From Pseudomonadota bacterium (lineage in GTDB: Bacteria > Pseudomonadota > Gammaproteobacteria > Burkholderiales > JABEVD01), in assembly GCA_021848825.1 (NCBI GenBank), contig JAJZTQ010000010.1, forward strand, positions 1 to 64,000: a stretch of DNA of 64,000 nt. Reading direction: 5' to 3'. Below are positions 53,929 through 59,735 of the stretch, one piece after another. Position 1 is the stretch's first letter; the number at the start of each line of letters is the position of its first letter. The position numbers and the translations under genes are program-made. The notes below the pieces were generated by a model. That model made no database searches. It worked only from the letters and a program-made list of their open reading frames with translations, and was not told the DNA's origin.

Positions 53929-55005
53929 TTAGAACCGGATATGCGTGGAAGCATTGAGGTTTGCACGGGAACCGCGCCAATCGTCAACCAGATACTTGGT
54001 GAAGGGCAATTCGGTCTTCTCGAAGAAACGCGGCCAGCCGATGCGCTCGACCCAGTCGGAGAGCCTCTCCCAGGGTCTTGCATCACTCTTGTAGACATGG
54101 AGGATCCGCTTCACCACCTCGCCCACTTCGGTCCAGCGGGGAGGATTGTTGGGAAGACCGGATGCCACCATCTTCATGAAAGTCGGCTTGGCGCGCGCAT
54201 TCGAATTCTTTCCGCCGACCCAGATCGCGATCTTCGAGTATTCGGGATCGTTGATCTGCATCGGTGGGCAGGGGGGATAGCAGGCGCCGCAGCAAACGCA
54301 CTTCGTCTCATCCACTTCCAGAGAAGGTTTGCCGTTGACGAGCGCAGGCCTGATTGCAGCAACAGGGCAGCGCGCCACGACAGCAGGACGCTCGCAGACG
54401 TTGGCGACGAGATCATGGTTGATCTTGGGCGGCTTGGTATGCTGGACGATGATCGCGATGTCAGCCTGCCCGCCGCAATTGATTTCGCAGCAGGAAGTGG
54501 AAAGATGAACGCGGTTGGGCATCTCTTCCTTCTTGAATTCGTCGATCAGATCATCCATCAGCGACTTGACCACGCCCGATGCGTCCGTTCCAGGAATGTC
54601 GCAATGCAGCCATCCCTGGGTATGAGCGATCATCGAAACGGAGTTTCCGGTGCCACCCACGGGGAAGCCGTTTGCTTCGAGCTCGGCGATGAGCGGCGCA
54701 ACCTTGGTCTCGTCCGACACCATGAATTCGATGTTCGAACGGATGGTGAAGCGCACATGGCCTTCGGCGAACCTGTCAGCGATGTCGCAAAGCTTCCTGA
54801 TGGTATAGACATCCATCTGCCGCTGCGTGCCCGCCCTGACAGACCAGACCTGGTCCCCGCTATGGGAGACATGGTGAAGGACGCCAGGACGCGGACGGTC
54901 ATGGTATTTCCAGTTGCCATAGTTCTTGATCAGCGTGGGATGCAAGAACTGCTTGTTGTCCGGCACGCCGCTCTCTACGGGCCGGCGCAATTGGGTCTGA
55001 GACAT
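53929..55005 (-). CDS. dsrB: Reverse dissimilatory sulfite reductase beta subunit
   Basis: 358 aa. Sirohaem/4Fe-4S cysteines in STSCCEINCGG and CERPAVVARC, and ferredoxin domain CVCCGACYPPCPPM. Forms the alpha2beta2 enzyme with DsrA, working oxidatively here to release sulfite from DsrC-bound sulfur. Confidence 0.97.
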   Translation of the reverse strand: MSQTQLRRPVESGVPDNKQFLHPTLIKNYGNWKYHDRPRPGVLHHVSHSGDQVWSVRAGTQRQMDVYTIRKLCDIADRFAEGHVRFTIRSNIEFMVSDETKVAPLIAELEANGFPVGGTGNSVSMIAHTQGWLHCDIPGTDASGVVKSLMDDLIDEFKKEEMPNRVHLSTSCCEINCGGQADIAIIVQHTKPPKINHDLVANVCERPAVVARCPVAAIRPALVNGKPSLEVDETKCVCCGACYPPCPPMQINDPEYSKIAIWVGGKNSNARAKPTFMKMVASGLPNNPPRWTEVGEVVKRILHVYKSDARPWERLSDWVERIGWPRFFEKTELPFTKYLVDDWRGSRANLNASTHIRF

Positions 55006-55016
55006 TGTCTATTCTC

Positions 55017-56306
55017 CTAGGCTTGCTTGGCTTTGATTTTTGCGACTTCCTCGTCCCAGCCGTCAGTCCTGACATAAGGATTCATCCTGGGGCTGGAAAC
55101 CATGTTGGGATCGACATCGATTCCCATCGCGTCGAGGAAATTCACCAGGCCGATACGCTCGATCATCTCGCCAGTGCGCTCGTGCTCCAGCGCATTTTCA
55201 GCGAAGAAGTCGATGATGCGCTGACCGAGATCGACCAGCTCTTCCCTGTCCTCATCCGTCTCGAGCTTCATGAACGGCACAACGACGGTTCCCATCAGGT
55301 CGCCGATCTTGAGCGTACGCTTGCCGCCCACCAGTATCGTGGCGCCCTTGTCTTTTCCGGGCGAAAGCGCGCCGGTCATGACATTGATGCAGTGCATGCA
55401 GCGCACGCAGTCGTGGTTGTCGATTTCGACGGCATGCGTGTCGTTCACCGCCACGCTGGAGATGTGCTCGCCCTTGTTGACATCCTTTATTTCCTTCAAC
55501 CGCACGGCCTTGGTCGGGCAACGCGCAACCACGTCATTGACGAGTTCATTCATGCCGTGTTTTTCGAACCATTTGCGAGCCAAGGCCTCATCCGTCCGGA
55601 TGTTGTCGCGCCATGTTCCGATCACCGCCATGTCGGCACGCTGGATCGAGTTCATGCAGTCGTTGGGGCAACCCGAAAACTTGAACTTGAACTTGTATGG
55701 AAGGGATGGACGATGGATGTCATCGACAAAAGTATTGAGCACGACCCGATGAGCAGCAGCCTCGTCGTAGCAGGACTGCTCGCAGCGAGCAGCACCGACG
55801 CATGACATGGAGGTGCGGACTGCAGGGCCTGCGCCGCCCAGATCGAACCCGAGCTCGTTGATTTCGTCGAATGCGCCCTGAACATTATCGGTCGTGGCGC
55901 CCTGGAACATGATGTCGCCTGATTGACCGTGGAATGCGATCAGGCCCGAGCCGTGACGCTCCCAGATGTCGCACATCTTCCTGAGGACATCGGTGTTGTA
56001 ATGCATGCCTGCAGGAGGCTGCACCCTGAGGGTGTGAAATTCTGCAGCGTCCTTGTAGATGGGCTCGCCGTTGTCGTCCTTGAGCTCGGTGAAGCGGGGA
56101 ATGATGCCGCCGCCGTATCCGAAAACGCCAACCGTGCCGCCTTTCCAGTAACCCTTCTTGGTTTGGTAAGACGTCTCAAGCTGACCCAGGAGGTCAACAG
56201 CCATGTCCTTATCCTGAGCCAAACGTTTCAAGCCCGTCACAAAGCTGGGCCACGGGCCTTTCTCGAGTTCGTCGAGATTCGGCGTGTCATGCAGTTTCTT
56301 AGCCAT
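55017..56306 (-). CDS. dsrA: Reverse dissimilatory sulfite reductase alpha subunit
   Basis: 429 aa. Cys at about 169, 175, 179 (SCVGAARCEQSC) and 213, 217 (SGCPNDC) bind the 4Fe-4S/sirohaem; ferredoxin domain CVRCMHC near residue 300. First gene of dsrABEFHCMKLJOPN. The Shine-Dalgarno is GTAGGAGGA. No dsrR/dsrS are adjacent. It diverges from the orf71/cas6-like operon. Confidence 0.98.
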   Translation of the reverse strand: MAKKLHDTPNLDELEKGPWPSFVTGLKRLAQDKDMAVDLLGQLETSYQTKKGYWKGGTVGVFGYGGGIIPRFTELKDDNGEPIYKDAAEFHTLRVQPPAGMHYNTDVLRKMCDIWERHGSGLIAFHGQSGDIMFQGATTDNVQGAFDEINELGFDLGGAGPAVRTSMSCVGAARCEQSCYDEAAAHRVVLNTFVDDIHRPSLPYKFKFKFSGCPNDCMNSIQRADMAVIGTWRDNIRTDEALARKWFEKHGMNELVNDVVARCPTKAVRLKEIKDVNKGEHISSVAVNDTHAVEIDNHDCVRCMHCINVMTGALSPGKDKGATILVGGKRTLKIGDLMGTVVVPFMKLETDEDREELVDLGQRIIDFFAENALEHERTGEMIERIGLVNFLDAMGIDVDPNMVSSPRMNPYVRTDGWDEEVAKIKAKQA

Positions 56307-56430
56307 GATTCCTCCTACAAGTAAAATTGTTTGGAAAAGTCCTTTCGAACCGTCGGCGATCTTGGTCGCCTGTATTCTAGACGCTCCGCCTGGCGTATAT
56401 TAGACAAGCCTGATAGTTCTATGTAAACTA

Positions 56431-56498
56431 CCCTTCCGGGTTATGAATCATCCCCCCTATAGGCTATAGACGGTTTAGGCTTGCGTCGCGCTCAATAT
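56431..56498 (+). promoter_or_regulatory. Twin CCC-N5-GGY-TAT promoter, copy A (before orf71/cas6-like operon; dsrA divergent)
   Basis: Two co-oriented sites CCCTTCCGGGTTAT (56431-56444) and CCCCTATAGGCTAT (56454-56467), 23 bp apart. The second extends to TATAGAC; 21 bp after it lies CAATAT (56493-56498), about 57 bp before the orf71 ATG. The same architecture precedes tusA-dsrE2 and the tauE operon. It may also affect dsrA, 125 bp away. Confidence 0.75.
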
Positions 56499-56555
56499 TG
56501 CATAATATTGATATAGCAGATTTCAGCAAATTATTATCAGTTAACCATCCTAATA

Positions 56556-56771
56556 ATGACGCAAATCAACGAAATTGAGAAGTTCAGGATACCACTTGGC
56601 GGGCAGGAAATCGAATTGCAGCAGATCGATTTTGCAGAAGGCGGCATGAGCATGCTGCGCATTCGCATCAGGGAAGGCAAGCGCTTCACCATTTTCGATA
56701 TCGACCCTGTTACAGCCGGGCAATGGGCAGATGCGATGAAGAACTGGGCGGAGTCCGTCAATGGCAAGTGA
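56556..56771 (+). CDS. Hypothetical 71-aa protein heading the cas6-like sulfur operon
   Basis: Small soluble beta-rich protein (FRIPLGGQEIELQQIDFAEG; TIFDIDPVTAGQWADAMKNW). No family is recognised. Its stop overlaps the cas6-like start by 11 bp, so the two are coupled. Confidence 0.65.
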   Translation: MTQINEIEKFRIPLGGQEIELQQIDFAEGGMSMLRIRIREGKRFTIFDIDPVTAGQWADAMKNWAESVNGK

Positions 56772-57354
56772 AATCACCGACATCGTTTTCGATCTCGAAG
56801 GGAATTTCCTGCCGGAGGGATATGGGGCTCTGCTCTGGAAGGAATTGGTCCTCGCCCTTCCCTGGCTTGAAAACCAGAATCCTGCCGGCATCCTTCCGAT
56901 AAAAGGGGCATCGAGCGGAAAAGGACTTCTTCTGCCGAGACGCGCCAAGCTGGCATTGCGCATCCCCGCAGAATTTTTCAGAAATGCGCTCGACCTCGAG
57001 GGAAAGACCATCGAGGTAGGCGAAAGCACGCTCAAAATCGGCCGGGGAAAAGAAAGACGGATCGAGGCCTACCCGACCCTGAATTCCCATTTCGTCGTCA
57101 GCGAAATGGACGAGACCGATTTTCTGCACGATGCTGAAGAAAAGATGGGGGAGCTGGGGATTGCCTGCAAATTGATCTGCGGAAAGCACCAGGCTCTGAA
57201 ATATGGCACCGAAACCCTTTCCGGATACAGCCTCGTCGCCTATGACCTGAAGCCGCCAGGATCGATCAGGCTGCAGCATTCCGGGCTTGGGTCCCATCGC
57301 CACATCGGATGCGGCTTCTTCGTCCCGCACAAGACGATAGCAGGACTTGAATGA
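56761..57354 (+). CDS. Cas6/Cmx6-like RAMP-fold protein (197 aa), no CRISPR
   Basis: Resembles the Cas6 type known as Cmx6 (type I-MYXAN): a beta-strand start DIVFDLEGNFLPEGYGALLW, GILPIKGASSGKG, LKIGRGKERRIEAYPTL, and the C-terminal Gly-rich loop LGSHRHIGCGFFVPH. Such proteins process CRISPR RNA. Here there is no repeat array or cas gene; the neighbours are sulfur-relay genes. The identity rests on pattern recognition. An RNA-binding role in sulfur-gene control or tRNA thiolation is speculative. Confidence 0.65.
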   Translation: MASEITDIVFDLEGNFLPEGYGALLWKELVLALPWLENQNPAGILPIKGASSGKGLLLPRRAKLALRIPAEFFRNALDLEGKTIEVGESTLKIGRGKERRIEAYPTLNSHFVVSEMDETDFLHDAEEKMGELGIACKLICGKHQALKYGTETLSGYSLVAYDLKPPGSIRLQHSGLGSHRHIGCGFFVPHKTIAGLE

Positions 57355-57380: not shown

Positions 57381-57710
57381 ATGACATATCATATAAATGG
57401 AGTTGACGTTGAGACCGATGACGATGGCTATCTGCTCGAAGCCGATTTCAGCAAGGAAGCCGTCGAAGTCATCGCAGCGGCCGAAGGCATCGCGCTTACC
57501 GAAAACCACTGGAAAATCGTCGACTACATGCGGGAAGAATATCGCGAAAATGGCCATACCCCGAATTTCAGGAACATGCTGAAGGGTGTTCAGGAATTCT
57601 GGAGTGACGCAGACAGCAAGGCGCTTTACGACCTCTTCCCGATGGGTCCCGCAAAGCAGGGGGCGAAGATCGCCGGACTGCCCCAGCCCTATGGAAAAGG
57701 AGGCTACTGA
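57381..57710 (+). CDS. rspA: DsrC-family protein without cysteines (RspA type)
   Basis: 109 aa from MTYHINGVDVETDDDGYLLE (GGAGGA Shine-Dalgarno). The DsrC/TusE fold ends FPMGPAKQGAKIAGLPQPYG, where both C-terminal cysteines of true DsrC are replaced. There is no Cys at all. DsrC homologues lacking both are called RspA and are thought to be regulatory. The canonical DsrC is 4.8 kb away. Confidence 0.85.
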   Translation: MTYHINGVDVETDDDGYLLEADFSKEAVEVIAAAEGIALTENHWKIVDYMREEYRENGHTPNFRNMLKGVQEFWSDADSKALYDLFPMGPAKQGAKIAGLPQPYGKGGY

Positions 57711-57719
57711 GAAAACATC

Positions 57720-58199
57720 ATGACCAAGTTGAATGCGAATGTCGTGCTCGACATGAAAGGGGTCACCTGCCCTGGCCCCATACTCGGCGCGAAGAAGATG
57801 GTGGACGAACTGGAGAGCGGACAGATCCTGCTTCTCATCTCGGATTGCCCGGGTACACCGGACGATCTCTTCGCCTGGGCGAGGCAGACCGACAACCAGA
57901 TTCTCGAAAGCGCGAAATTGCCAGGCGGCGGAACAGGATATTACATCCTCAAGGGAAAGGGGCATGAATTCAAGGCCAACGTATTGCTCGACATACGCGG
58001 CGTGCTCTGCCCCGGCCCCATCGTTGAAGCCAAGAAGCTCCTCAACGGGATGCAGACAGGCGAAATCCTGAAGCTGACCAGCAACTGCCCCGGCATAAGC
58101 TCGGACATAGAAGGATGGGCCAAGGTCACCGGTGAAACGATACTGGAGTCGATCGAGATCGCGCCGGGCGAATACGATTTCTACATCCGGAAGGGATGA
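57720..58199 (+). CDS. Tandem TusA-TusA sulfur carrier (159 aa)
   Basis: Two complete TusA domains: residues 1-80 (LDMKGVTCPGPILGAKKMVD) and 84-159 (LDIRGVLCPGPIVEAKKLLN), each with the Cys-Pro-X-Pro sulfur-carrying Cys. Single-domain TusA is usual (one is at 61551). The fusion could carry two persulfides or bridge partners. Starts 9 bp after rspA. Confidence 0.9.
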   Translation: MTKLNANVVLDMKGVTCPGPILGAKKMVDELESGQILLLISDCPGTPDDLFAWARQTDNQILESAKLPGGGTGYYILKGKGHEFKANVLLDIRGVLCPGPIVEAKKLLNGMQTGEILKLTSNCPGISSDIEGWAKVTGETILESIEIAPGEYDFYIRKG

Positions 58200-58792
58200 T
58201 GAGGGTAAAGAGCCGCTGGTTCAAGGCAGAACGCGAGAAAACGCCTGAAGAAATCGCAGGCGCCATGGCTTTCATCGTCTGGAAGATCGCACAGAACGGC
58301 CTCAAGAACCTGAGAAGCGCCGACTACGAGATCGAGGCAGGTCCCCGGTATTTCGACTACACCGAGGAATTCCTGATCTTCCTCGTCCAGGTCGCCGACA
58401 GGATCGCGTTTGACAAGCTGGATCAGGATGCGAGGACCGCTTTCACGACGGAACTCGCCCTGAGGGTCGCGGGAAATTTCGCCGAAAACAAGGGAGACAT
58501 CCTCGGGCTTTCCCATGCTTCATGCAAAAGCGAATTCATAGACCGCTACAACGAGAGGACCAACGTCTACGCCGAGTGCGGATTCAACGACGAAGGCCCG
58601 GATTTCGCCTTCTATCGCTATCTCGGACATTGTCTGCTCGAATTCTGCGATGAGCGGGACAGAAGCTGGATCGTCGACAGGATCATGCAGATCGAGGCGC
58701 CTGAAGGCGTCTCTACCGTGAGCCGCGCCATGAAGGGGCTGCTGGATACGGAACCTTCCCACAGGCTGGGGTCGGGAATAGGACCGGACTGA
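58196..58792 (+). CDS. Hypothetical protein (198 aa)
   Basis: Mostly helical soluble protein (EEIAGAMAFIVWKIAQNGLK; FIDRYNERTNVYAECGFND; GHCLLEFCDERDRSW) with four cysteines. No family is recognised. Overlaps the TusA fusion (ATGA) and meets the dioxygenase start at 58792, so it is firmly in the operon. Confidence 0.65.
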   Translation: MMRVKSRWFKAEREKTPEEIAGAMAFIVWKIAQNGLKNLRSADYEIEAGPRYFDYTEEFLIFLVQVADRIAFDKLDQDARTAFTTELALRVAGNFAENKGDILGLSHASCKSEFIDRYNERTNVYAECGFNDEGPDFAFYRYLGHCLLEFCDERDRSWIVDRIMQIEAPEGVSTVSRAMKGLLDTEPSHRLGSGIGPD

Positions 58793-59619
58793 TGTTCCAG
58801 GATCATGGCGCTTACCTGAAATGGCGCGAAAAGAAGTTCGACACCCATCCCGGATCAATCGACGAACTGATCGTCGAAGTCGACGATCTCGAAAATCTCA
58901 GCATGGCTGAACATGAAGCTATCATGGACCGCATCGCCAGAGCCAACATGGCGATCTATGTGAGCCGCAATCCGCTGCCTGACTTGAAGCGTTTCGCAAG
59001 GCAATTCGGCCTGGAAAACCTGGATGCCAACTGGCTTTCCGGCGAAGACGGTATTTCCAGGATAGAGGTCACGGAAGGCGGGAAGGGTTACATTCCGTAT
59101 ACCAACAAGCCGATAAAATGGCATACCGACGGTTATTACAACCCACCCGAGAGAAAAATCCGCGCGATGCTGCTGCATTGCGCTCAAAGCGCTGCTGACG
59201 GGGGGGAAAACAGGCTGATGGATCACGAAATGCTCTATTGCCTCTTGCGCGATCAGAACCCTGGCTACATCGAAGCTTTGTCAAGGCCGGACGCCATGAA
59301 GATCCCGGAAAGGACGGACGAGAACGAAGTAGCGAGGAAGGAAGAAACCGGTCCCGTGTTTTCCTTCGACGAACAGGATCATCTTCACATGCGCTACACG
59401 GCGAGAACGCGGTCCATAGAATGGAAGCAAGACCCGCTCACGCTCGCTGCAGTATCCGCACTCGAATCCATCCTCGCCTTCCCTTCCCCCTACATCTTCA
59501 GAACGAGGCTGGAGTCCGGCATGGGCCTCATCTGCAACAACGTGCTTCACGACAGGTCGGGCTTCGAGGGAAGCGACCGGCTTCTCTTCCGCGCAAGGTA
59601 TTACGACAGAATCAGATAA
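58792..59619 (+). CDS. TauD/TfdA-family Fe(II)/2-oxoglutarate dioxygenase
   Basis: 275 aa. Iron site in KWHTDGYY (His-X-Asp) and distal His in NVLHDRSGF; Arg in LLFRARYYD for 2-oxoglutarate. TauD releases sulfite from taurine, and a substrate such as an organosulfonate would fit the sulfur context, but no transporter is present. Last gene of the operon. Confidence 0.85.
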   Translation: MFQDHGAYLKWREKKFDTHPGSIDELIVEVDDLENLSMAEHEAIMDRIARANMAIYVSRNPLPDLKRFARQFGLENLDANWLSGEDGISRIEVTEGGKGYIPYTNKPIKWHTDGYYNPPERKIRAMLLHCAQSAADGGENRLMDHEMLYCLLRDQNPGYIEALSRPDAMKIPERTDENEVARKEETGPVFSFDEQDHLHMRYTARTRSIEWKQDPLTLAAVSALESILAFPSPYIFRTRLESGMGLICNNVLHDRSGFEGSDRLLFRARYYDRIR

Positions 59620-59735
59620 AAACCCGCCATACCGGTGCCTGGTCTTGAATTATCAGGTGATAATTCAAGACCAGGCACCGCTTTTTTCAAGGCCAGGCAC
59701 CGCTTTTTTTGACAGAATCAAATAAAAAACCCGTC
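59605..59735. repeat. Hairpin element flanked by 25-bp direct repeats
   Basis: A perfect inverted repeat with 23-bp arms (59633-59655 / 59658-59680; starts CGGTGCCTGGTCTTGAATT) is followed by CTTTTTT and a second partial copy of the right arm (59688-59710). GACAGAATCA-(A/G)-ATAAAA and following bases occur at 59605 (inside the tauD end) and again at 59711. It terminates the operon and resembles a REP-like mobile palindrome. Confidence 0.65.

Follow-up and report, generated by a model that had tools for sequence, protein, structure and literature searches.

A Cas6-family protein is a near-constant neighbour of dsrA in Gammaproteobacteria

Introduction

Cas6 is the RNA-cutting enzyme of CRISPR immunity, and its G-loop is one of the elements that contact RNA. 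Two described systems are closest to the protein studied here. The Cas6 of the type I-B CAST Cascade (PDB 8fcj/8fcu, chain B) belongs to an RNA-guided transposition complex, and the type I-MYXAN Cas6/Cmx6 proteins of cyanobacterial plasmids (L115-L117, L119-L121) are encoded beside cas3/cas8/cas7/cas5. Sulfur oxidisers offer a different precedent in dsrQ, a published case of a gene kept divergently upstream of dsrA, for which the available text of PMC7596348, citing Lenk et al. 2012, describes a tauD-like gene upstream of dsr clusters.

Here we analysed positions 1-64,000 of contig JAJZTQ010000010.1 (assembly GCA_021848825.1, Pseudomonadota bacterium; Burkholderiales, JABEVD01), a stretch of 64,000 nt that we refer to as the window, in which a Cas6-family gene lies divergent from dsrA. 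The Cas6 family is known and the sulfur-locus setting is new; a literature search confined to papers outside subscription returned no published report of Cas6 in dsr loci.

Results

A Cas6-family protein with a predicted Cas6 fold

The open reading frame at 56761..57354 (+ strand) starts with ATG and encodes 197 aa. Its product matched PF09559 (Cas6, Pfam) at 171.6 bits (curated cut-off 26.7, E 2.5e-50) and TIGR02807 (cas6_cmx6, NCBIfam) at 125.1 bits (curated cut-off 98.85, E 3e-36); because both scores exceed their curated cut-offs, the resemblance to Cas6 is not a chance one. Six PADLOC Cas6 models also matched this open reading frame, and the gene is present as a single copy in the host genome. 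A sequence search of the PDB returned one match, the type I-B CAST Cas6 (E 9e-34). Structure prediction, with window and locus sequences as its only input (57 relatives), gave an AlphaFold model with a pLDDT of 88.8 and a pTM of 0.83, and Foldseek again ranked the type I-B CAST Cas6 first among PDB matches (TM 0.86, rmsd 2.1 A, E 6e-16), followed by further Cas6 structures. The window protein is thus predicted to adopt the Cas6 fold of two RRM-like domains. The glycine-rich loop GLGSHRHIGCGFFVPHK is present and almost invariant among relatives, a conservation that is somewhat overstated because the gamma sequences were chosen with a loose G-loop pattern; in the window protein the C-terminal loop reads GLGSHRHIGCGFF, with glycines 175, 177, 183 and 185 nearly invariant. 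By profile, predicted fold and phylogeny, the product is a real member of the Cas6 family and the RAMP superfamily. This bears out the first-pass annotation, which had noted Cas6-type features and a C-terminal glycine-rich loop and had proposed profile searches as a check on RAMP membership.

Organization of the operon

Directly upstream lies the gene for the 71-aa DUF6967 protein (PF22295; 56556..56771, +), assigned from its Pfam profile. Its 3' end overlaps the Cas6 ATG by 11 nt, which makes translational coupling plausible; the first-pass annotation had taken such coupling as given, and the overlap is the part of that statement that is seen. The structure model of DUF6967 has a beta4-alpha fold of four strands and one helix. 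PUR repeats are nucleic-acid-binding, and Foldseek aligned the DUF6967 model to them with a probability of 0.99 and a TM of 0.69, but with a non-significant E of 0.28.

Downstream on the same strand are rspA, encoding a protein of the DsrC/TusE family (57381..57710; PF04358 at 113 bits, DsrC relatives in the PDB), a tandem, two-domain TusA (57720..58199; PF01206 matched twice), a 198-aa protein that has no family match and is kept in the operon of relatives (58196..58792), and a TauD-family protein (58792..59619; PF02668). All four had been listed in the initial annotation, and one boundary changes: a longer rspA open reading frame begins at 57351, and a start at 57381 (MTYHING.., after GGAGGATAAGAAA) is more likely, in which case RspA contains no cysteine. 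The TauD gene is very likely the dsrQ of Lenk et al. 2012, as given in the available text of PMC7596348. On the minus strand, dsrA (55017..56306) and dsrB (53929..55005) run opposite to the Cas6 operon, confirming the divergent arrangement first proposed, and alignment within the genus revealed strongly conserved blocks in the divergent intergenic region (56307..56555). Just 3' of the operon, at 59664-59707, a 22-nt sequence (TTCAAGACCAGGCACCGCTTTT) occurs twice in tandem, perhaps within a terminator region.

Neighbourhood and co-occurrence with dsrA

A motif scan of GTDB genomes recovered 559 relatives, the best 80 of which were fetched as beta loci. Among these best 80 of 559, the DUF6967 gene lies just upstream of Cas6 in 79 and a divergent dsrA is present in 74, the others running off the contig with the exception of L107. 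At that locus (L107:9941-10636, Parabeggiatoa) a lone Cas6 of the sulfur clade sits between unrelated housekeeping genes near groEL, with no dsr genes within 10 kb. The usual gamma order is dsrA, then, divergently, tauD, a gene for a protein of 61-71 aa, Cas6 and rspA. Homology of the small gamma protein to DUF6967 was considered and not established (hhalign probability 11%). The rspA gene usually adjoins Cas6, with L045, L047 and L048 among the few loci that lack it there. It is followed by a rhodanese-like protein in most beta relatives and in two gamma loci (L163, L165). The window genus has a tandem TusA at this place, and one sulfurtransferase seems to have been exchanged for the other, as shown by the rhodanese-like L108:11063-11908 against the tandem TusA at 57720-58199 of the window. 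The survey of orthologue neighbourhoods suggested at the outset therefore finds them adjoining dsrAB, not cas genes.

The same association was evident in gene content. Across 369 genomes of the GTDB class Gammaproteobacteria, 111 carry both Cas6 and dsrA, 7 Cas6 only, 8 dsrA only and 243 neither (Fisher p about 7e-75, a nominal value since kin genomes were counted as independent). Six of the eight dsrA-only genomes end close to dsrA, the other two being G776 and G914. In each of the seven Cas6-only genomes, the contig with Cas6 also bears a neighbour of the tauD or DsrC/rspA type; G879 has a dsrA fragment as well. In 200 near relatives, 39 genomes have both genes, 4 dsrA only and none Cas6 only; PF09559 thus occurs in 39/43 genomes with dsrA, all 39 with true dsrA, versus 0/157 of the others, and DUF6967 is distributed much as dsrA is (39 genomes). 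Two of the four exceptions (G128, G150) have contig ends near dsrA. The other two, G089 and G137, retain much of the operon and are natural losses of Cas6: both have DUF6967-TusA-U198 operons without it (L122 and L124, respectively), L122 also without RspA and L124 with a DsrC-like protein in its place that carries a cysteine in its C-terminal region. In a separate phylum-wide draw, Cas6 was found in 5/398 genomes, all five in the order of the window. The Cas6-dsrA association is therefore class-wide and goes beyond one odd genome, which the first-pass annotation had understated. In several genomes a second dsrA copy (L125, L127-L130) lies outside the dsr cluster, and the stretches fetched around these copies contain no further recognised dsr gene.

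Absence of CRISPR partners

The window contains no CRISPR-like array, its sole close direct repeat being the two-copy 22-nt element at 59664-59707, and the whole host genome gave no match to Cas1, DevR/Cas7 or the RAMP family (PF03787), in line with the initial observation that repeats and other cas genes are lacking. The window protein accordingly falls outside what defines a CRISPR-associated Cas6, namely cas genes or an array nearby, or partner genes elsewhere in the genome. Among Cas6-bearing genomes, Cas1 was not found in 27/40 beta and 37/71 gamma representatives, and DevR/Cas7 was not found in any of the 40 beta genomes; some Cas6-bearing genomes do have Cas1. Five genomes of 1.0-1.1 Mb (G612, G710, G818, G848, G910), a size that suggests symbionts, have kept Cas6 and dsrA and have no Cas1 or RAMP matches. 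No virus-borne copies were confirmed. On a plasmid of Gloeobacter morelensis, a gene annotated as Cas6/Cmx6 (L118:7974-8762) has no other annotated cas genes and lies near genes that carry the annotations PAPS reductase family and DNA methyltransferase; it is perhaps another Cas6 outside CRISPR.

Residues, charge and selection

We compared 119 sulfur members (80 beta and 39 gamma) with seven sampled CRISPR Cas6 proteins. Glu118 is found in 119/119 sulfur members, Gly141 and Arg61 in 118/119 each, and Lys191 is nearly invariant (Arg in two gamma proteins); all four are absent from the CRISPR relatives. At position 21, where helix 1 begins, the window protein has Tyr and most relatives have His. 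This N-terminal His is present in 39/39 gamma, 61/80 beta and 6/7 CRISPR members and is replaced by Tyr or Asn in 19/80 beta members, the window's relatives included. Since the search pattern that yielded the 80 beta loci included PHK, conservation of the PHK residues is better judged from PF09559-based matches, in which His190 is Tyr in L018 and L019 and Gln or Tyr in 6/39 gamma proteins. The window protein has a pI of 6.2 compared with 9.2-9.6 in the CRISPR members sampled, and median values fall from 9.4 (CRISPR) to 6.8 (beta sulfur) and 5.9 (gamma sulfur), a loss of net positive charge. Together with Tyr21, this loss weakens a plain reading as a Cas6 ribonuclease.

The median dN/dS was 0.14 over 14 pairs, indicating purifying selection on the Cas6-like protein. 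In trees, the sulfur proteins fell on one side and the seven CRISPR Cas6 proteins on the other (support 100/99), and a quick tree placed beta and gamma sulfur proteins each in their own group; as the CRISPR proteins sampled are few and mostly from cyanobacteria, the direction from CRISPR to sulfur is one that we infer.

Candidate RNA targets

Lineage and genus alignments pointed to a pair of small hairpins within the leader of dsrA (56355-56370 and 56338-56351, minus strand, together 56338..56370) as a candidate RNA target. Conserved leader hairpins scored z -4.9 to -13.6 in lineage alignments against column shuffles, which ignore dinucleotides. Single-sequence z values against dinucleotide shuffles were near zero (beta -0.45, gamma 0.06), giving no sign that dsrA leaders are on average unusually structured, and two-sided pair changes were not seen in the window genus. 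With the hairpins also differing between lineages, we set them aside as a general target. Strong conserved hairpins also occur at the dsrB-dsrE and dsrC-dsrM junctions (e.g. L049, L055, L110) and after rspA, where several relatives have large inverted repeats. These, too, were rejected as Cas6 targets, since they look like the usual intercistronic or repeat elements and share no common motif by eye. Neither the dsrA leaders nor the intercistronic hairpins thus yielded a convincing RNA target for the sulfur Cas6.

Discussion

That a Cas6 was exapted into a sulfur-oxidation locus is close to certain and far firmer than any mechanism, and it seems to have been a single recruitment of a CRISPR-type protein into sulfur metabolism. 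The explanation we favour, with a probability of roughly 0.47, is that a Cas6-fold RAMP protein moved out of CRISPR and turned into a single-copy accessory of the reverse (oxidative) Dsr locus, where it probably continues to act on nucleic acid. Recruitment would have preceded the split of the beta and gamma lineages. The protein would most likely bind a structured RNA from the dsr region, which His-bearing members perhaps cut, while in the window genus, with Tyr in place of the N-terminal His, binding may remain rather than cutting. In this way the protein, alongside RspA and the small protein encoded upstream (DUF6967 or, in gamma, its counterpart), could tune how the sulfur-oxidation genes are expressed. 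The family assignment, fold, G-loop, absence of CRISPR partners from the host genome, near 1:1 occurrence with dsrA, neighbourhood, purifying selection and separate clade all favour this explanation, and we also count towards it the beta4-alpha model of DUF6967, weakly PUR-like at E 0.28. Retention of the G-loop, and of the His in gamma members, argues for continued nucleic-acid work; the drop in positive charge and the appearance of new invariant residues speak for a role that has changed. Against the favoured explanation stand the negative search for an RNA target, a pI of about 6-7 versus 9.4, the variable His in beta members and the two dsr genomes without Cas6. Its most specific form, in which Cas6 was domesticated once, before the beta/gamma split, as an RNA-acting regulator of reverse Dsr, is more tentative still.

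The loss of net positive charge, the variable N-terminal His of beta members and the clade-specific, (nearly) invariant Glu118, Gly141, Arg61 and Lys191, absent from CRISPR relatives, would suit a protein that kept the Cas6 fold and dropped its RNA work, serving with RspA and the small upstream protein as a protein-protein adaptor or as an assembly or maturation factor of the oxidative Dsr machinery. The usual position of rspA, encoding a cysteine-free DsrC homologue, beside Cas6 fits this too, whereas the nearly invariant G-loop, the His in all gamma members and the loci without an adjoining rspA (L045, L047, L048) do not. We consider this possible and somewhat less probable than an RNA-acting role. 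Thiolation of tRNA or another RNA with TusA and RspA, as the first-pass annotation suggested, draws on the presence of TusA and a DsrC/TusE-family protein in the operon and is improbable: tandem TusA is inconstant, with a rhodanese-like protein in most beta relatives, no tRNA-modification enzyme is seen in the operon, and Cas6 tracks dsrA, whereas tRNA thiolation is general. The broader part of that suggestion, a Cas6-family protein in sulfur metabolism, holds in its fixed place in the dsr locus. Least probable of all, and largely refuted, is a working CRISPR Cas6 that serves an array elsewhere in the genome in trans. The TIGR02807 score above its cut-off and the Cas1 genes of some Cas6-bearing genomes are compatible with it, but Cas1, DevR/Cas7 and RAMP matches are all missing from the host genome, DevR is absent from 40/40 and Cas1 from 27/40 beta and 37/71 gamma genomes, five 1.0-1.1 Mb genomes keep Cas6 without Cas1, and the dsr neighbourhood is fixed.

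The database name 'CRISPR-associated Cas6/Cmx6' obscures the fact that these proteins are near-markers for oxidative Dsr in Gammaproteobacteria, and CRISPR surveys that count such genes from this metabolic setting would need correction. A central enzyme of the sulfur cycle has a near-constant and uncharacterised Cas6-like neighbour, in very small genomes as well. If the most specific form of the favoured reading, a single domestication as an RNA-acting regulator, is true, a CRISPR-family ribonuclease or RNA binder would have a core metabolic, non-immune role in well over 100 species, including some with genomes as small as 1 Mb.

Comparison with known systems places the window protein nearest to the type I-B CAST Cas6. 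Among relatives with a solved structure this one is the closest both in sequence (E 9e-34) and in fold (TM 0.86), and the two share the G-loop and the CGIFVP end. The CAST protein is basic, acts within a transposition complex and lacks the sulfur-clade Glu118, His190 and Lys191. The type I-MYXAN Cas6/Cmx6 proteins belong to the same family and have the N-terminal His and the G-loop, but their pI is above 9 and they form a separate clade. Finally, the account of dsrQ in the available text of PMC7596348 makes no mention of a Cas6-family neighbour, whereas the dsrQ-like TauD gene of the window shares its operon with Cas6.
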